Assembly: GCA_012976225.1 (NCBI GenBank)
Contig: JAAVVG010000015.1
Location: 62,001 to 126,000, forward strand
DNA: 64,000 nt
Reading direction: 5' to 3'
DNA from: Golubevia sp. BC0850
Taxonomy: Eukaryota; Basidiomycota; Exobasidiomycetes; Golubeviales; Golubeviaceae
How positions within the stretch are numbered: the first letter of the stretch is position 1; each line of letters opens with the position of its first letter. The position numbers and the translations under genes were made by a program. The notes under the pieces were generated by a model. It saw only the letters and a program-made list of their open reading frames with translations. It was not told where the DNA came from and made no database searches. Positions 16,899 through 64,000 of this stretch are shown in pieces.

Positions 16899-19810
16899 TT
16901 AAAATACCTGCGAGCTTCGAATCCAAAGCTCACTTTCTTTCTCTGAACACCATTTTGCACATTCATTTGCGCTTCTAACAGCAGCACTTTTCGACATCCA
17001 AGGACTTAGAGTCAAATAGAGCTCGAAAGATTGAGTGAGCCAAACCAGAACAGCTTCGTGATTGGTCTTGAGGTATTGAAGTTTCAAAGGTCCTGCGACT
17101 GGAGGTCTGAAAGGGGGTGGAGCTAAACTTGGAGTTGCACAATTTCTCGATTGATCCGTTTCCGAACGTTGCTGATGATACTGGTAGAGAGAGGTGAACA
17201 AGGAATTGGTAGAAGGAGTAGAGCTTCTATTTGGAGCATGAATCGAATCATTGGCTAAAAGATATAAAGTGATCAATCGTTTTCGATTAATCAGTTTCTC
17301 TTTTCTCCCCTTTCTGAGGGCTGACTTCTTCTCTTTCTGATTGAAGAAGTTTGTCTTCTGCTCTTGATCCATCTCATCCAGATTCAATTCATCTTCATCT
17401 TCACTGTCTTGATCGAAATTGAATTCCCAGGCCTCTAAATCCTTGCCTTCTTCATCGTCTTTACCATCCCAGCCATAGTCTCCTTCCCATCTTGGTCCAG
17501 TAATTTGAGTGTGAACTGTGCTCTTGAAGACAAAATGCCGCAGTCCGGCAATTCGTAGATCGTCCACTGAATACGTTGAACGAGGGAGTTGCTTGAGAAG
17601 AAGAGAAAACAACGAAGGCGAAGTCGAGAGGGAGGCGATTGGAGTAGAGGGAGGTGGAGAATGCAAAGACTGCTTAACAAAGAAAGAAGAGTGTCAGCAG
17701 ACTCAAGGGAGAACGAGGCCCTGTGCGCTGTCAAGAAAGACAAGGCGTGGAACTTACGTTTTCGATATCGCTCTTCCATGCACTCAAAGCTGGAAAGGCT
17801 TCACGATCAGCAGTGACAAAGATGAGCTGTAGCTTCGATTTGTAGTGGCTGGTGAGGCCATCTTTGACCTTACGCTTCTCCTTCGTCGAAACCTTCGACT
17901 CCGCTCTTTTACTCTTCAACCCAGAGACATACATATGTAGGAAGCCTCTATGCTCGAATTTGGGGAGACAGATAGGAGCCCACACTTCACTGTCTTCGTC
18001 TTCGTCTTCTTGCCCTTCTACTTCTCCTTCGATCTTCGATGAAGATCTTCTACATTTCCTACTTCTTCCTGTAGCGACTCTTGCTGTATGCATTAGGATA
18101 TCCATATCTTTGGGATGAAGACTTGTCATTTTAGGTCGTAAGATCGTAACCAACTTCCCTTTCTCTAACAGTAAAACCAATAGAGTTTGAGGAGGAGGTT
18201 TACTATCTCCATTTACTGATTTGAACCTCAAACAAGTTCCTAGCTCATCTCTCAGACTCCCAACTAAAGTTAACGGCTGTAGAGCACCTAAAATTCCACC
18301 AATCTCCAGAGTCATCTTCTTACATAACGAGTCTAATAATCTGTCTGTACCGCCTAACAATCTTCTCAAATCGAAATTAGACCTCTTCGAAAAGATGCTG
18401 GTCAGTTGAGTTGAAGTTAAAAGTGAAAGTAGATAGGAATGTAAGGTTTGAAGATGTTGAAGTATTGTGTGATAGGGTAATGTATGAGGAGAGGTTGAAA
18501 TGCAGACCAAATGTAAAGGAGGTCGATGTAAGAAAGTAAGGTTGATAGGAGAAGTGGTGGAGGAAGAAGCCGAGGTCTTGATTTCTCGAATCTTATCTCC
18601 TCCACCTCCTGGAGCTGATTCGTCTGTCTGATAAATAGAGATTAGAGCTGACATGACTCCTACTCTTGTGGTAGATCGTTCTTCCTCTGAATCTGAAGTT
18701 GAATATCCATTTCCTTCTGCTTCGTGTTGCTCTCCGATCTGAGTTTCTGCTTCTCCGGAGGCTCTTTCTTTTCCTTTGGCTTTCGATTTTGACTTTGAAG
18801 ATGCATTCCGTTTCTTTCTCTTGTTCCTTCCATCTGCTCCTCTTGAGACGTAGACTGGTTTGCCAGCTGCAGTCAGGACGTAGTACCTCGGAATTGGAAA
18901 TGGATCTGGATCTTGAGAATCATCAGAATCTTCTGAGTCGGAAGTGGCAGATAAATTGGAGGTAGATGCGTGTCTCTTCGATCTTGAAGAGCTCCTTCCA
19001 CGTCTCGAAAGCGAGATGGAAGCTGAGAGGAGAGGGATGGGAGAGGGGAAGGTCAGCTGGCTGGGCTATCATCGATTCTCTTTAGGAACTCGATCGAGGC
19101 GATCTCCACAGCTGTCCAAAGAAGCTCTCATTTTCAAGAGCTGATCAACATCCCTCGAGAGAATAGAGTGGAGGAGCTGTAAGCGGACTGCTCTCCAAAC
19201 CAATCCGTCCTCTTCCTCCTTCGCTTCGCAATTGTACAGGACCTTCCGAGACGGCTTTCTCAGATCAGAATCATAACTCACAATCTAGTTTAATCACTTT
19301 CTCATCCCAGTCATTCACACCTTCGCCGGTGGCCTTCTCCTTTTCCTTCAAGTCACCCCCGCTCAGCTGAGAAGCATAGCTGACTGACCTCAACAAAGCC
19401 AAAGCGTTTGAGGCAGATTGAGAACTGAATTGATCCGAGTCCACGGCTTCGTTCTCATCATCTTGGTCGTCTACAGTTGATTCTTGGTTTGATTGGGATG
19501 AGATTGTGATTTGAGATTGTGAAGTGGTGGCCAGAGAAGCGTAAGAAGAAGAAGGCTGACCTCTCTCTGATAGAAGAGTTGGTTTGGGATCATCACTAAT
19601 TTTGTCGACAGGCAACTTCCGAGAGGGAGAAGTGGATCTTGAGGGTTGAGTTGAGAAAGGCACTGGAGATGGTTGGCGGCTGGTACTTTTACTAGCAATT
19701 CCTGAAAGAGTGTTGGTTGAGATGACGCTGGTTGAGCTCTGAGATGTCAAAAATTGAGGTTTGATTGAAGATCTAGAAATCAAAGAAGGTGCCTTTCTAT
19801 CTGAAGACAT
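16899..19810 (-). CDS. MON1: Vacuolar fusion protein MON1 (Rab7/Ypt7 GEF subunit)
   Basis: Mon1-Ccz1 activates the Rab7-type GTPase Ypt7 on late endosomes and vacuoles. Three exons: 19810-19282, 19022-17758, 17672-16899 (about 855 aa). Residues 1-200 are Ser/Gln/Asp-rich. The longin part starts at PIPRYYVLTAAGKPVYVSRG, followed by VGVMSALISIYQ, PLHLVCISTSPHT, GGTDRLLDSLCKK, KLVTILRPKMTSLHPKDMDI and CLPKFEHRGFLHMYVS. The last exon has STYSVDDLRIAGLRHFVFKS, KTNHEAVLVWLTQSFELYL and NECAKWCSEKESELW. An acidic insert (EDEDELNLDEMDQE) splits the third longin region and is probably a disordered loop. Intron 1 (259 nt) contains an open frame; a retained or extra exon there cannot be excluded. Acceptor 3 may be 3 nt later. 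Confidence 0.88.
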
Positions 19811-20175: not shown

Positions 20176-20635
20176 TCACGTGCAAGAAGTTTGAATTAAC
20201 CCATTGGACTCATTTCCAGTACAGCAGACAGCAGTGTTTTTGCATGAGTTGGAAACTGCAGCCGAGGCTCCGACGACATTGACTGGAATTTGGTTCTGTG
20301 AGAGAGAATAAAGAGAGGGCGAAGAAGAGAATAATTCAAACGTCGGTGAGAGACTCATCTTGACTGATGAGATCCATCAACACGAGGTTTTGAGAATTAA
20401 GCCCCCAAACCAAACTCTTCAAACTCACGCAGTTAAGTCCGACTTGTCCCACCACGTCGTTGAGACCGATCAAAGAGGCGAGGGATTGAGCGTCAGCTCC
20501 ATCGTGGACCGATTCACAACACTGGGCGGTTCCAGTGGAGCAAGATCCTTGACTGGAAGATTCGGTTTGAGGAAGAGCTGCGACAGAGACGGTGGCGATG
20601 GCGACTAGAGCGAAGAGAGTTGAAGAGAATTGCAT
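20176..20635 (-). CDS. Class I hydrophobin
   Basis: Two exons: 20635-20429 and 20295-20176 (108 aa). The protein starts with a signal peptide (MQFSSTLFALVAIATVSVAA, cut near ALPQ). The eight hydrophobin cysteines are all present in order: Cys, Cys-Cys (GTAQCC), Cys (VGLNC, exactly at the end of exon 1), Cys (SNSC), Cys-Cys (TAVCC) and Cys (QTSC, one residue from the end). The long third spacing (about 28 residues) and 17-residue fourth spacing mark class I. Such proteins assemble into amphipathic layers on hyphae and spores. An in-frame ATG far upstream exists but would bury the signal peptide, so 20635 is the start. A strong TATA box lies 126 bp upstream. Confidence 0.95.
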
Positions 20636-20760
20636 TTTGGGTAGAGAAGAGAGAGTTGGGTAGTTTTGTTTGAGGCTTGAAGAGGAGAAAGAAGTTGAGT
20701 GAGCTGAAGAAAAGATTTGTTGAGATGAGGGAGATAAGAAAAGAGAGAGAAGGTAAGCCT

Positions 20761-20768
20761 CTTTTATA
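20761..20768 (-). promoter_or_regulatory. TATA box of the hydrophobin gene
   Basis: TATAAAAG on the minus strand, 126 bp before the ATG, in the context AAAGGTATAAAAG. The same 13-mer is used by the secreted-peptide gene (26585). Confidence 0.7.
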
Positions 20769-21180
20769 CCTTTTCGAGCGAAAGCTGGTAGGTTTGAGTC
20801 GACGATAGTGGAATGGCATGCCTCCGATGTCAACGCATCTTCGAGATCGGATTGGAATCCAATGTGACTGACGCGGGATACATACGTATTCTCAAGGTGA
20901 AAGAAGAGAAGAGAGGATGTCTGGATTGGAATGCGATTTGCAATTGGAAGATTGGTCGAGGAGGTGGCGATGCACTTTCTCGATGCGGAAAGGCACACGG
21001 GAGTCGACTGCCAAGTTCGAAAGCACCTGTCAATCAAGATGTGAAACCCAAACAAGCATCAGCTCACATGTATGTATGGCAGTGCGTCAGATCAAGCCAG
21101 GGCGAAGGAAGAGTGCGACGTGATGTGAGCGGCTGACTCGTCATCGAGTCGTTCCTCCACGACCCGCGATAGATTTATAT

Positions 21181-25191: not shown

Positions 25192-25786
25192 GTGGAGATG
25201 CAGATAGTATGCTCAATAGAAAGATAGAATTAGTGGGGACTAGATTAGACTGGCGGATTGGAGCGTTGGAGGAGACCCCTCTCTTCTCTTTCTAGTTCTC
25301 TACCAATGTCTCAAGTTATAGTAGGCTGACTTTGATGTTGATGGCGTGGCTGCAATAAAATAGATGTAGTTGGTTAATTGTGTTCGTGGTTGGCGGTTGA
25401 GGCGTTGATGTTGCGCCTGAGCTCGAGTCTATGCTCTCTCTAATACTATATATAGCAGAAAGCTCTCAGAAGGGAGAAGCAGGTCCCTGCATATGAAATG
25501 CTCCGTTCTACAAAAGTAAAGATATAGCTCAAACCTGGAGAGCCTTCGTGCTTATCTTCCAATTGCTCACAGCTTATATCAAGAATTCCACAAAGGCCTG
25601 GGGATTTGAAAGAAAGGAGCCCTTTGGAGAGACGAAAAGAGAAACAAAGGGCCAACAGGAGACCTGATTAATCACAATCGAGAAGGATCGATCTTTTGAT
25701 GGAAATGCTCAGAAGGTATGTCAACTAGAATCAAATCCGCAAGTTACAAAAAGCGAGTCAACAAAAGGAGGTGAACTGAAAGGTTT
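25192..25786. other. Intergenic: SEC2 promoter
   Basis: Upstream of SEC2 and downstream of the secreted-precursor gene. No domain-bearing frame. TATATATAG at about 25448 on the plus strand has no gene to serve on that strand. Nothing else seen. Confidence 0.45.
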
Positions 25787-25899
25787 GGTTTTTCTTCCAA
25801 CCAGTCTTCTTATAAATGAGTTTGGTCAAGAGTCTGGCTAGAAATCCTGGCTTTTTCCCATCCCGATCAACTCCGTTAATTATGACGCGGCGTTGCAAG
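25787..25899 (-). pseudogene. Out-of-frame second copy of the cationic peptide unit
   Basis: Immediately after the stop of the secreted-precursor gene, the next frame encodes SPSDLQRRVIINGVDR followed by KKPGFLARLLTKLIYKKTGW. It matches exon 2 of that gene at 24 of 36 aligned residues, counted by eye, with no stop inside. The similarity continues upstream into exon 3 (HDLLSRD against HDLLLGYKGRD), so the duplicated unit covers the exon 1/exon 2 join without its intron. It is one base out of frame with exon 3, and I found no splice option that restores it. Either a real frameshift, a recent relic, or a base error in the assembly. Confidence 0.7.
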
Positions 25900-26438
25900 T
25901 CAGAGGGTGAAGAGAGTGTCCGCAAAGTCGCGAGACAGCAAGTCATGGATTAGGGCAACTTCGTCTTCATCTGAGATCTGGTCCTGTACGACATAGATTT
26001 GGTAAGAATGAGGGAAGAGAGAGACGAATACGTCAATCAACAGCGTCCAATGGAGGGATTGAATGTTCACTCACCCTTTTCCATCCGGCTGCTTTCTTGA
26101 TAACTTTGGTCAGGATCTTAGCCAAGAAGGATGGCTTCTTGTTAGTGCGATCCACTCCATTGATGATGGCTCGACGCTCCAAGGCGCTTGACTGTGAGAA
26201 GAGATTGTGAAGTAAGAATCAAGGGGCACGCCACGAAGGAAATGTATCTCTCTCTCTGACTCACCTCATCTTGAACATCTCTGCCTTTGTAACCTAGAAG
26301 TAAATCATGAGGTAAGCTGTCAACTGGAACGGTCCACTTGAGCATATCTTGAGCGCCGACATTGTGGTCCTTGGGCAGAGGTGCTGCAGAGATAAGGGAA
26401 GCAACAAATAGAGGGAGGGCTAGCTTGAGGAGTTGCAT
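25900..26438 (-). CDS. Secreted precursor with dibasic site and cationic amphipathic peptide
   Basis: Three exons: 26438-26265, 26191-26075, 25983-25900 (124 aa). A signal peptide (MQLLKLALPLFVASLISAAP) is followed by an acidic pro-region (DHNVGAQDMLKW, LPHDLLLGYKGRDVQDE). Exon 2 begins SSALERR, a Kex2-type dibasic site, then AIINGVDRTNKKPS and FLAKILTKVIKKAAGW. The latter forms a good amphipathic helix: Phe, Leu, Ile, Val and Trp on one face, five Lys on the other; net charge of the piece after RR is about +8. Exon 3 is acidic at its start (DQISDEDE). Signal, acidic pro-piece and cationic helix is the layout of many antimicrobial or membrane-active peptide precursors. That function is inference; I recognise no family. 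TATA box 147 bp upstream. Confidence 0.78.
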
Positions 26439-27257
26439 CGTTGTAAGAGAAAGAAGTAGAAGATAGCTAGAGAAAAGAATGAGAGAAGAACACGATAGAC
26501 CAGCTAACGAGTGAGAAGAAGAATAAAAGGGAAGATGAAGGTGGGCAAGGTGCTAGGGAATGCGAGTTTGAAAGAATAGAGGGTCCTTTTATACCTTTCC
26601 AGATCGATTTCCTGCCCATACGGGTTAAAATATACTTGTACTGGAACAGAATGATTGTGGCACTAGCATGTATAAAGCTGAGGGTCGACTCTGATCTGTG
26701 ATGAAGCGACGGCTTGCGCTTTCAGGGGTCAAGAAGCTGGGTAGAGCCCCCGAAGCGCAATGACGATTACCTGTGTGACTAAAATTAGCTCATCAAACTT
26801 CAGAAAGAGGCATAGGAACGTGTACGTGGGCTTTGTGATCGCAGCGCCTGAGTCTTAAATTTCACCCCCTTGAAGTCAATTTCGAACTTCCCCCCTCAGT
26901 TCTACGTTTCTTTGAAGTAAAACCTTCTTTCCAAAACTGGAAGTTTCTTCCCGGTGAATAAATGTGTAGCTCGTGTCTCAAGCTCTCAAGCCTCAAGATT
27001 CATTGTGGCCTTGACTTTCGAGACGTTCTTTTGTTGGCCCGTCTTAAATGACTGTCGCCACTTCCAGAATTAGCAGTCAAGTCTTCGTTCAAGCCTTTCC
27101 AAAATTCCAGATGAACGCACTCAGATTTTTAAATAAGTATACAAGCAGATCAAATCACTCGATAGATAAGTATAACAGGGAAGAAGTCGTTAAACCTTTA
27201 ATAGACTAGACCGAGTAAAGTTGAGCAAATGAATCGAGACAGTACAATTTGACCAAC
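26439..27257. other. Intergenic: secreted-precursor promoter and POT 3' end
   Basis: About 820 bp. It holds the TATA box at 26585. The stretch near 27110-27200 is A/T-rich and probably the 3' flank of the transporter. No coding frame with a signature. Confidence 0.5.
26585..26593 (-). promoter_or_regulatory. TATA box of the secreted-precursor gene
   Basis: TATAAAAGG on the minus strand, 147 bp before the ATG, within AAAGGTATAAAAG, identical over 13 bases to the hydrophobin TATA context. Confidence 0.7.
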
Positions 27258-30200
27258 TCATTCCTTCATGACAGTCTCATAACCAGGCAAACTTTCTTTG
27301 ACAGGTCTGACCTTTCCAATCTCGTTGTCGTCCTCTTCTGTGTGATCTTGCTTGCGAAGAAGACAATACATCACGGATCCTCCGATGAAAGCGGCTGGAA
27401 AAGGTGGCAGGAAAAGAGAAAGGGAGAAGTCAAGAGGTCAGAGACTAGGCAGTAGTCTACCCATCTTGGGTTGAAATACTCACCAACAGCGATACCTGTT
27501 AGCAGTTGCGTCCCAATCGACAATCAGATGGGCAGAGAAGAGTTGCGAGAAGTGAATACGGGTTGGGAATACAGTGAATTATCGCTTGGAGACGACCAAA
27601 CTTGCTCAACTCACCGGCATAATTTCCAATCAGATAAGGATCTCTAGACACAGGGACTAGAGCAAAGTTAAGAGCGTTAGCCACAGCGGTAGTGAGAAGG
27701 TAGATTGCTTGGACGAACGACTTCATGGAAGCAGGAGCCTTGTTATAAGCGTATTCAAGTCCAGCAACACTTGCGAAGCATTCGGATACACCGATCAAGA
27801 AGTATGCAGGGACTTGTACCCATACACTGATAGACAAGACACTGGGGCATTCTCCATCTGGGTAATCATTTTGACGCCCGTGATGTCTGCAGGGGCTCGC
27901 CTTATAGATGTAGTACTGAAGAACGGCAGAGTAGATCTGTATGCGAAAAAGAAAAGGAAAAAGAGTCAGAGCCCTGGAAACAAAGCCTTTTAGGCATCTC
28001 CAGTATCTCACCATAGCAAAAGATGCGCATAAGAAACCAGCGTAGATCCTAGCGACAGGCTTGAAGTTGATCTGAGGAAACAGTTGGAAACGGCAATGGA
28101 CAGGACCGAACATCAATCACTCTTCTTCTTTTTATCACCCAACAGAGGGTTTCTCACCTTTTTTGCTCTGAGGAAAGGATAGATGAACTTGTCCAAGAGA
28201 GGAAGAACCACTGAGATCGACAAAAGTGATCCAGTAAGCAAAAGGGCTGGTTTAGCAAGCACAAAGAGAGCGGTCTTCAAGAATCACCTCCAAGTAAAGA
28301 GACACTTACAGACGATGGCAAAAGCATCGAAGACGCTGAAGATGTCATTGGGCGCCGAACCGAGACGAAGAACTCCAGCTTGAGAGACAAGGTTGTTAGA
28401 CATTTGGTTGTAGGCAAGCCAGTAAAGAGGGAAGAAGACGAAGACCTTGCACGCAGATATCTGGAAGAATTTAGAGAGTGAGACCAGCGTGAGAAGATTT
28501 CATGACTGCCGACGTCTGCTGCCGCTTACTCACAGTTCTTTGGACTTCAGCTACGAAGGTCGCATCCCAAGCCAACCAACTTGGAACCTCTCCGCGCCTA
28601 GCGATGACGTTATCGGGGAGAGCAACGTTCCAACCCGATTTTTCTCCTCTTCCAAGAAGACCTTTAATCCCATCTGCTGCTACCATCCAGCAAACTCTGA
28701 AAGCCTGAAGAATGACAGTTCCTTGAGGAGGAACGACCACATATTTCTTACGTCCATAGGCTAGAACTAGAGGGACCAGCATGAACACCAAAAATGGAAG
28801 GGTGAATGCAAGCCAGAATCCTACCTAAAAAGATTAAGAGAGGCCGGGTCAGCTGGGCTGAGGAGAGAGTGGAGCGGTAAGAAGCCAAGGAGAATAAAGA
28901 TTGAAGACTTACGTGCTTTTCGGCTTGGGTAGTAGTCAGAGTACCAGCAATAGAGCCCACGTTAATGGCTCCGTAGAAGATTCCGTAAACTCTTCCGATA
29001 GTGACATTCGGATCAACTATCACTCTTTCTCCAAATTCCTCGTCTTTCTTTGGCTTCAAAGTCTTCACCACTTGACGTTTAAGAGACACTTGATCTACAA
29101 CGATCGCTGAGACGTTAGCCTGATAAGAAAGCCAAGAAAGGGAAAGTCAGAGAGAGTTGTTCTGCTGTTCCCCTACACATCCCCTTTAACAATCACCTTG
29201 ATTCCTCCTGTTCCCAATCCAATAACTAGCATGGCAACGACGATACCTGGGAAGCCAGCTCCAGCAGCGATTCCGGCTGGAGTCGAAGTTCCCACCAAGA
29301 TTGCGAGACCCGCGATGTAGACTCCAGTAAAGAGACAGATAGTTTTGTAACGTCCGAGATAGGTGTCGGCGATGTAGGCTCCGAGCAGAGGGGTGATGTA
29401 ACAGAAGAAGCTGAAGAAAGTCGTGAGAGCAGTTGCCACCTGTTGGTGTTTACCAAGAGCTCCAGGAACGTCGTCGCTTGAAGAGCCTGCTGGAACGTTT
29501 CCTGCTGTACTACCATCTGGAAGTGGATTTTGAATGTAGTTCTGGGGAGATAGGGAAAGACGAAGTCAAGGGAGAGCCCGGAGACCGGGGGTCAGAAAAG
29601 AGAGCGGAAAGACAGGGCAAGTCTAGATGAGCAGCAACTAGTCCTGCGAAATCGGTTTGCTCACTTGGAAAGCTGAAAAGAGAAAAGGATTCGAACAGTG
29701 TTTAAAGATCAGGAAAATGAAGAGAGAAGCGGAGAGTGTCCAGGTGTGCTTTCTTCCAACCCCTCTTTCTTATGGATATGTGAAGTACTCACGACCTAGA
29801 GATGCACCATAGAAGGTGTATCTTTCTGCAAGCTCGACGATAACGATGAGAAACGCTGCGTATGGAAGCGGAGCTGAAACTCTTCGAAGAGTGTTTTTCT
29901 CCTACACAGGGCCAGAGAGTTCCAGAGGACGAAGGAGGTCAGCGACTGAATGAGTCCAAAGAAGTTTGAGAGCATCGATCATCCGAATCATGAGGAGTAG
30001 AACGGAGTCGAGAATAAGGTGCGCAGGGAAAGAGAAGGGCAAGAAGGGGACTTTCACTCACCTCTTCAGTTGGCAGAGTACATCCATCTGGAATGTCTCC
30101 AAGATCGTCGTATTCCTCGCTCGAAGTGTCAGCTTTCCTATCTGAGACCTTTTCTTGACTGCTGGAGGCATCGAGATGAGAGTGATCGAATTTTTGATGA

Positions 30201-61611: not shown

Positions 61612-62475
61612 CTGCTTTGCCACCTCAGTTCTTCTGATCCCCAAATTACTATCCTTTCGGGTCAGACTTTGCTGGATGCAGTCTTGCCCTCTCACTTGCA
61701 CTCATCTTTACCACAACCTCTTGAAATGATGCATGCTATCACCATCTATCCTTCGCACTTTGGAGTCGATCTGGGAGGAGCTCATCCCAATTCCCAGCTC
61801 TTTCTCGCCGTCTTCTTCTGCTTGCTCAGATCCCCAACTAGAGCCAATGTTGTTCTTGACCTAGCTATGTAATGTGATCAGCAACTGCAAGAAAAGGAAG
61901 TAGTATGACACGCACGCATCGTTTTGACAGAGGGCGATAGGATAGGGGCTTGTACAGCGACGCCACTCTCTTCTTTGTTCCGGGTCTCGTGAGTCGTGTC
62001 TGTGTCTGTGCCCCTGAACACTTCCGACCTGCCGAGACGTTGTTGATGAAAAAGCACTAAATCCAATCTAAAAGCCTAAAAGTCTCGAGTGTTGCCAGTT
62101 CTCCCAAAGTGTTCCACTGTTAGGTTTTTGGTTAGCGTTCGAGCGTTTTGATTGAGTGCGGCCTGCGGGGTAGTGGCCCTTCGAGAATAGCAGGCAGAGG
62201 TTGAAAAGACCTATTGTTTTGCTATCCTTTCATCCTTCCCATCCACTCCTTCAACCCCTAATCCCAAAGACTTGGACAACCCATATAAAGGAGAGCTTTC
62301 TCAGCGAGGTCCTTCTCAACCTTCTTCTTTCGTCCTTTCCTTCCTTTCCCAAGAAGTTTCTTCCGAACCTTCTTCTCTTTCGACCTCCGGTCTCCGCTTT
62401 TGTCTTTTCTTTCCTCTCGAAACTTTTCCTTCTTCCTTTCCTACTCTTCAACCAACTTGCAAAATCTTCCTCAAA
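61612..62475. other. Intergenic: glucanase promoter
   Basis: About 860 bp between the SDR stop and the glucanase ATG. Contains the TATA-like box at 62284. From there to the ATG the plus strand is C/T-rich, a common fungal promoter/5' UTR feature. No gene seen. Confidence 0.55.
62284..62291 (+). promoter_or_regulatory. TATA-like box of the glucanase gene
   Basis: TATAAAGG, 192 bp before the glucanase ATG, followed by a long pyrimidine tract. Confidence 0.55.
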
Positions 62476-64000
62476 ATGCACTTCAGCAGTTCTAGCACTG
62501 CCAGTGGAACTCTTCTTCTCACTCTTCTGGCTTCTACCAATGCTCTACCTTCAATCAACACTTTCAGAGGTGGAAAGGTTTCTTCATCTCTATTCAGCCG
62601 AGAACATTTCGTTTCCGAAGTTTTGGAAGCAGTCCCAAACTTGCCAAACCCGAGAGATTATGGAGCTCACACTTCGGAAAGATCTCATCCAGAGCTTGAT
62701 AATTGGGTAGCAATGTACGGGTACGGAGAACCTTCCAAACCTTCTCAAATCTCAACTCTTTTCAACTCATTCCTATCAAAAACAGAAGCTGTTTTCAAGC
62801 TCACTGAAGAGTTGATCTCTTCTTACAGTCATCTCTTATCTCCTTACGTTTCCGAGAAGCAAAAGTACATTCCAAACCTAACCTTCTCAAAGAGCAAATG
62901 GTGGAACAATGGCTTACCTCAAGAAGAAGATTTTGATGCTAGCGCAAATCCAAACCTCCCTCCTGATAGTGGTTTCGATTATGGAAACGTTCCTGTCAGA
63001 GGAGTGAACATCGGTGGGTAGAATCGAACGAACAGATTCTGACATTCATGACCTTGCTTTCAAGGCAATAGAGACTGGCACGCTGACACCAACTAACCTT
63101 CGAAATCTTGTTGCCAAATGATCTCCTTTCCTCTCTCAAAGGAAATTGGGTGAGTTTCAGAAGGAAGTCTGTTTGTTTGTTGCTTTTCGATCTCCGTACC
63201 CGGGTCTGATATCCTTCTTTTTCTTGACCACCGGGTCCACCGCGGTTCTCCTCTTTCAGCTCCTTGTCGAACTCTGGATGGACAGCGTGAGTTGTAAGAT
63301 TTCTATTCTGAGATGTAATGTCAAGTAGAGGCGATCCCGATAAGAGAGCATTGAAAAACTGACCTCTGAAACTCCCCAACTTCCTTCCTTAAGACTCTCA
63401 CTGCCGCCCTCAACAACCATGCTGTCAACGCTCCATTCCCAAACCCTATCGTCGATGAATGGACTGGTAAGTCAGCTTCGATGTCTCCTTGATTGGAGCT
63501 CGATAGATCCGCTGGTTTGGGGACTGACATCTTCATCCTCGTGGTTCTTCATCGTTTTTTTTGCCACCCTCCACCAGCCGGTCAATATTCGACTGTCGAA
63601 TGGGCCACTCACGTACTGGAAAAGCATTTCGACACGTGAGTCTAGAGTATGCATCTCATTTCAACCGAAGAGCTTGCCTCTGACCCAAGTTATTCTCTCT
63701 TCTCTCTCGCCCCCCCCAACTTTCTCCTTCTAAGCTGGATGGTTGAAGATGATTGGAAGAACATTGCAGCAGCTGGTCTCAACCACGTCAGAATTCCAGT
63801 TCCTCACTTTGCCTTCCCAGAGACCATTGGCTTCGCTCCTTACCTCGCTTTGAACCGTTTCGAGAAGCTCAAGGAAGGAGTGCTTCTCGCTAAGAAGTAT
63901 GGCTTGAAGGTTTGGATCGATCTTCACAGTGTTCCTGGTAGTCAAAATGGTGAGAACTCTGCTTCTTTCCACTGCTTTTGGGATTTCCCAAAACTGATTC
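62476..64000 (+). CDS. Exo-beta-1,3-glucanase (GH5_9, EXG1-like), 5' part
   Basis: Secreted cell-wall glucanase, cut by the window end. Exons seen: 62476-63013, 63142-63149, 63260-63286, 63394-63466, 63578-63635, 63735-63949; position 63950 starts an intron. Signal peptide: MHFSSSSTASGTLLLTLLAS followed by TNALPS. GH5_9 features: VPVRGVNIG-NWLLVELWMD (read across an 8-nt exon), FPNPIVDEWT, GQYSTVEWATHVLEKHFDTW, AAGLNHVRIPVPHFAF and GLKVWIDLHSVPGSQNG. The catalytic acid (NEP) and nucleophile lie beyond the window. The N-terminal 150 residues before the catalytic domain are longer than in yeast Exg1. The first ATG of the frame (62272) lies upstream of the TATA-like box and is unlikely to be used. 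Confidence 0.88.

Follow-up and report, generated by a model that had tools for sequence, protein, structure and literature searches.

Within the 64,000-nucleotide stretch of Golubevia sp. BC0850 DNA that we analysed (the window), the minus strand from 26438 to 25900 can be modelled as a three-exon gene predicted to encode a precursor of 124 amino acids. The precursor opens with a signal-peptide-like start, followed in order by a pro-region, an RR pair, a cationic peptide of 30 residues, a KR pair, and an acidic tail. Exon 1 (26265–26438, minus strand; 58 codons) specifies the signal-like start and a mildly acidic pro-region and ends in VQDE. Exon 2 (26075–26191, minus strand; 39 codons) comprises SSALERR, the 30-mer AIINGVDRTNKKPSFLAKILTKVIKKAAGW (26170–26081, minus strand), and a closing KR (26080–26075, minus strand) at the end of the exon; because RR opens and KR closes the peptide, we regard exon 2 as a phase 0-0 cassette. 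Exon 3 (25900–25983, minus strand), as read from the sequence, consists of the strongly acidic tail DQISDEDEVALIHDLLSRDFADTLFTL and a TGA stop codon (25902–25900). The exons would be joined by removal of a 73-nt intron (26192–26264, minus strand; GTGAGT...CTCACAG) and a 91-nt intron (25984–26074, minus strand; GTGAGT...GTACAG), both of the form GTGAGT...CAG, and the donors of these putative introns are the only GTRNGT sequences on the minus strand within 25700–26500. A pattern match at 26593 marks a putative TATA box (TATAAA; 26588–26593, minus strand) approximately 155 nt before the ATG.

By its contents the window is fungal, with domains that include Sec2p, PTR2/POT, Alg6/Alg8, SNF2, and MON1-type longin. 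Two adjacent ORFs at 16899–19065 on the minus strand carry the trio of longin domains typical of the MON1/FUZ/HPS1 group (PF19036–PF19038), and a hydrophobin-like secreted protein (PF01185, E 9.3e-06) is encoded at 20336–21058 on the same strand. An ORF on the plus strand (62191–63021) has an internal signal-like stretch and GVNIGG at its end; Pfam gave no match on this piece, which by eye we take to be the start of a secreted glucanase. About 0.8 kb upstream of the peptide gene, and on the same strand as it, lies a gene for a POT/PTR2 peptide transporter, split into pieces (27258–28824, minus strand, the 27258 end having been placed by eye), with PF00854 matches at 27499–28116 and, under the curated cut-off, at 28471–28824. 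POT carriers take di- and tripeptides. Opt1, the importer of Qsp1 in Cryptococcus, is described as a predicted oligopeptide transporter (PMC7537855).

A sequence-only reading of the interval had proposed a prepro-cationic peptide, and this layout is confirmed by the three-exon model, by the positions of the dibasic sites, and by a second copy of the cassette described below. The proposed signal peptide corresponds to a signal-peptide-like stretch, identified by eye, from residue 1 to about residue 18 or 19. The gene's start also passes a simple rule of our own based on charge, a hydrophobic core, and small residues at -3/-1, and is one of 9 ATGs to do so among the 549 in the window that have 30 open codons. 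As had been noted, LERR (residues 62–65, with RR at 64–65) directly precedes the basic piece, which begins at residue 66; the closing KR, at residues 96–97, had been overlooked. The pro-region is acidic, as claimed, but mildly so (7 D/E versus 4 K/R, pI 4.86), and the tail bears out the acidic segment that had been placed after the basic piece (8 D/E, 1 K/R, pI 4.05). A net charge of about +8 had been given for that piece, and we recover this value from AIIN...GWKR (9 K/R, 1 D) when the closing KR is included; counted from the sequence without the closing KR, the 30-mer carries +6. Over the whole precursor the charges are even, at 17 versus 17.

A tblastn search of the window with the exon 2 peptide identified a second cassette copy (E 3.6e-14) that consists of SDLQRR, VIINGVDRDGKKPGFLARLLTKLIYKKTGW, and KK (25791–25904, minus strand). 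It is open, and its frame differs from that of exon 3. In the sequence it is followed by a C-terminal extension, NQTFQFTSFC, and a stop codon (25758–25790, minus strand). The sequence-only reading had missed this copy, which starts at the low end of the interval and extends past it (25904–25791). The next match had an E value of 0.41, and no third copy was found among the tblastn matches within the window. Copies 1 and 2 are identical at 25 of 38 residues, have RR at the same place, and share the core IINGVDR..KKP.FLA..LTK.I.K..GWK. Conservation is slightly higher in the IINGVDR..KKP half (10/13) than in the helix half (11/19), a small difference. Likeness between the copies ends at the cassette borders, with 18 of 60 positions matching upstream and 16 of 60 downstream, which is chance level.

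Several lines of evidence indicate that it is the protein sequence of the cassettes that has been kept. The DNA of the two copies is only 60% identical, with third positions changed in 25 of 38 codons, and synonymous sites are saturated (pS 0.95–0.96) at a pN of 0.24. The resulting pN/pS of 0.25 in the cassette frame is the lowest of the six frames, the other five giving 1.58, 1.64, 1.11, 0.39, and 1.80. When the same nucleotide changes were placed randomly, none of 20,000 randomised copies kept 25 of 38 residues (mean 13.2, maximum 22) and 14,953 of them gained a stop, whereas the real copy 2 has no internal stop. A low pN/pS in one frame together with saturated synonymous sites provides strong evidence for real, selected coding sequence. 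From the pN/pS values and the random-placement null we infer that, over a long period following the duplication, both copies were probably under selection as translated sequence.

Codon use allowed no call either way for exon 2, exon 3, or copy 2. Scores per codon were 0.075 for exon 1, -0.017 for exon 2, -0.035 for exon 3, and -0.127 for copy 2, with a low score (-0.428) for the ten codons of the copy 2 extension. The coding reference, in-frame 39-codon windows from the twelve long ORFs that also formed the training set, scored 0.149 (sd 0.154, n=166), and open off-frame windows scored -0.173 (sd 0.137, n=69), so that exon 2, exon 3, and copy 2 fall between the two. Searches for relatives were negative. 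Pieces of the precursor had no Pfam match at E values up to 1, including any to a non-secreted enzyme family, the kind of match that would have contradicted the sequence-only reading. The two copies, searched against Pfam and NCBIfam at E values up to 10, matched no family, in a setting in which the HMMER filters drop most weak matches. A profile built from the two copies gave 23 pattern-matching stretches in viral contigs and 103 pattern matches in contigs of prokaryotic genomes, none of which was confirmed in either collection, and one chance-level match in the PDB, to a designed repeat protein (E 0.15); the 30-mer alone had one PDB match (E 2.9). This lack of matches says little, because the collections were viral, prokaryotic, PDB, Pfam, and NCBIfam, none of them a fungal protein library. 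Intermediate codon scores and the absence of a Pfam or NCBIfam family would both suit a spurious ORF, in a non-coding stretch, that resembles a prepropeptide by chance. However, protein conservation that is specific to one frame and accompanied by saturated synonymous sites is hard to obtain in untranslated DNA, and we consider a chance origin very improbable.

An amphipathic helix within the basic piece had been suggested, with structure prediction as a check. In an AlphaFold2 model of the exon 2 peptide a helix spans F22–A34, with blocks of 10 residues at pLDDT 82 and 75, but overall confidence is low (mean pLDDT 68.6, pTM 0.35); a second helix, at residues 3–10, runs through the RR site with a low block pLDDT of 59. 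The copy 2 model (mean pLDDT 66.5) is similar, such that in both copies a helix is predicted at approximately residues 22–35, the blocks of this C-terminal helix having pLDDT values of 72–82, and a helix at residues 3–10 lies over the RR site at 58–59. The hydrophobic moment of FLAKILTKVIKKAAGW in copy 1 is 0.505, a value reached by 2.9% of 20,000 shuffles. The moment of copy 2 is 0.338 and lies within the range of its shuffles, being reached by 31% of them over 16 residues and by 9% over 13. Thus copy 1 combines a net positive charge with a predicted amphipathic helix, as expected of linear cationic amphipathic peptides, and the suggestion holds for this copy; in copy 2 the resemblance is weaker.

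We analysed the frame of copy 2 as deposited, unmended. Homology to copy 1 starts at 25904, level with the stop of exon 3 (25902–25900) but in another frame, and upstream the copy 2 frame is closed by a TAA at 25952–25950. Because there is no AG between 25960 and 25872, canonical splicing cannot join copy 2: acceptors at 25972, 25966, and 25960 enter its frame and then meet the TAA, the AG at 25979 retains the exon 3 frame, and the AG at 25872 falls within copy 2, behind RRVIING. We also considered copy 2 as a separate gene. An ATG is present in its frame at 25946, but by eye the start it would provide, MTCCLATLRTLSSPSD, does not resemble a signal peptide, and Pfam gave no match. The simplest account is that the frame was broken recently, or misassembled, in this one strain, and that the species produces both peptides from a single precursor or did so until recently. 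We regard this as probable, given that copy 2 remains stop-free where about three-quarters of the randomised copies carry a stop, that RR and the core persist in it although synonymous sites are saturated, that its homology begins right at the exon 3 stop, and that canonical splicing into it is closed off. The chance-level likeness outside the cassette counts against this account, and the present state could equally well follow from loss of an intron acceptor. A weak resemblance between the exon 3 tail and the exon 1 pro-region (SLPHDLL/ALIHDLL; blastp E 0.031, equalled by 149 of 5000 shuffles) hints that exon 3 may once have been the pro-piece of copy 2. There is also a slim chance that copy 2 is read by a programmed +1 frameshift at the exon 3 stop (CTC-TGA then C, where copy 2 homology begins). 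An RNA fold that might aid such a frameshift was sought in the 90 nt past the stop; the native sequence has no advantage there over shuffles, of which 140 of 200 fold as well (z 0.59), and by recoding rules the Leu tRNA would be expected to re-pair poorly once it had slipped by +1. Were a frameshift used, the gene would act as a recoding switch for a secreted fungal peptide, yielding one-peptide and two-peptide precursors at a constant ratio. Our preferred account, a frame break of recent date or an error of assembly, is compatible with either of the peptide functions considered below.

Taken together, these observations make a secreted, Kex2-type processed cationic peptide well supported as a prediction. 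In the pathway we propose, signal peptidase would take off the first 18–19 residues, a Kex2-type protease in the Golgi would cleave after RR65 and KR97, and a Kex1-type carboxypeptidase would trim KR to leave the +6 peptide of 30 residues. KK pairs inside the peptide could also be cleaved. The freed peptide would combine its conserved N-terminal half with an amphipathic helix at the C-terminal end, and the acidic pro-region and tail would offset its charge until excision. The ancestral gene would have carried two tandem cassettes in one precursor, both long selected at the protein level, of which the second is now out of frame here.

Comparison with described systems places the gene in a broad class. 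Basidiomycete a-type (prenylated) pheromones carry a C-terminal CaaX box, and copsin is cysteine-stabilised. Neither feature is found here, as the precursor ends in FTL, the copy 2 frame ends in SFC, and the 124 residues of the precursor include no cysteine, which sets it apart from the defensin type and from copsin. Copsin, as a secreted basidiomycete peptide cut by Kex2 (PMC9769878), does match what we predict for our candidate. The alpha-factor-type gene MF(ALPHA)2, as described in PMC6339444, resembles the present gene in encoding a secreted precursor with two near-identical motifs behind dibasic sites; it differs in that the motif here is a cationic 30-mer and no STE13 spacer (XA/XP) follows the dibasic sites, RR being followed by AI in copy 1 and VI in copy 2, and KR by DQ. 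The Kex2-processed repeat proteins (KEPs) have a signal peptide, a small precursor, and repeated peptide cassettes set off by dibasic Kex2 sites; the present gene resembles them in its small precursor, in a signal-like start that passes our own rule, and in candidate Kex2 sites that flank each cassette, RR and KR for copy 1 and RR and KK for the out-of-frame copy 2. Two KEP surveys demand at least three repeats in the definitions they give (PMC6339444, PMC7329392), and a third is described as asking, in its initial screen, that a piece resemble two or more others (PMC9769878). Since there are two copies in the whole window, one of them out of frame, we do not file the gene as a KEP despite its KEP-like layout. 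The Ece1 precursor of Candida albicans is likewise secreted, and its 31-residue peptide has been shown experimentally to be released through Kex2 cleavage at either end and Kex1 trimming (PMC5784256); this product, candidalysin, is reported to be amphipathic and helical (PMC13426942). Our comparison concerns this processing layout alone, with no claim of sequence similarity or of lytic activity for the present peptide. Ece1 also differs in having seven KR motifs in 271 residues (PMC5784256), as opposed to a single RR and a single KR in the 124 residues here. A literature search gave no closer relative than the KEP, Ece1, and pheromone precursor systems, and the core strings, searched as text, occurred in none of the papers covered. 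We therefore call the gene a member of the secreted, dibasic-processed fungal peptide precursors.

We favour, with a probability of about 0.5, a Kex2/Kex1-processed secreted peptide precursor, originally with two cassettes, whose product acts on membranes, most likely outside the cell in the fungus's own defence or in competition. Membrane activity of the peptide is plausible, favoured by its charge of +6 and its C-terminal amphipathic helix, and signalling is nearly as likely. More tentatively, then, the same precursor and processing may yield a non-lytic signalling peptide, hormone- or pheromone-like, that acts through a receptor or on cell-wall regulators. A length of 30 and a charge of +6 are unusual among fungal pheromones, which counts against signalling, as does the lack of both a STE13-type spacer and a CaaX end in the predicted products. 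The IINGVDR..KKP half, on the other hand, is at least as well kept as the helix half, a pattern that suits a recognised signal no less than it does a membrane helix, and the amphipathicity of copy 2 does not stand out from its shuffles. MF(ALPHA)2, with its two repeats, offers a precedent for a two-copy signalling precursor (PMC6339444), and synthetic KEP peptides of the basidiomycete Coprinopsis cinerea had no antibacterial activity in the tests that PMC9769878 relates. Of the secreted membrane-active or signalling peptide first envisaged at this locus, secretion and Kex2-type processing stand, on the strength of the layout and of a conserved copy with RR, while the antimicrobial label is best kept conditional.

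Because the KEP surveys of PMC6339444 and PMC7329392 demand at least three repeats in their stated definitions, precursors with two cassettes would be passed over by design. The conservation between copies described here provides an internal argument for coding that is independent of outside homologues, and the core shared by the two copies is a usable query for fungal proteomes. If active, the peptide would extend the Kex2-released repertoire by one that is helical and lacks cysteine, from a fungus with a hydrophobin gene.
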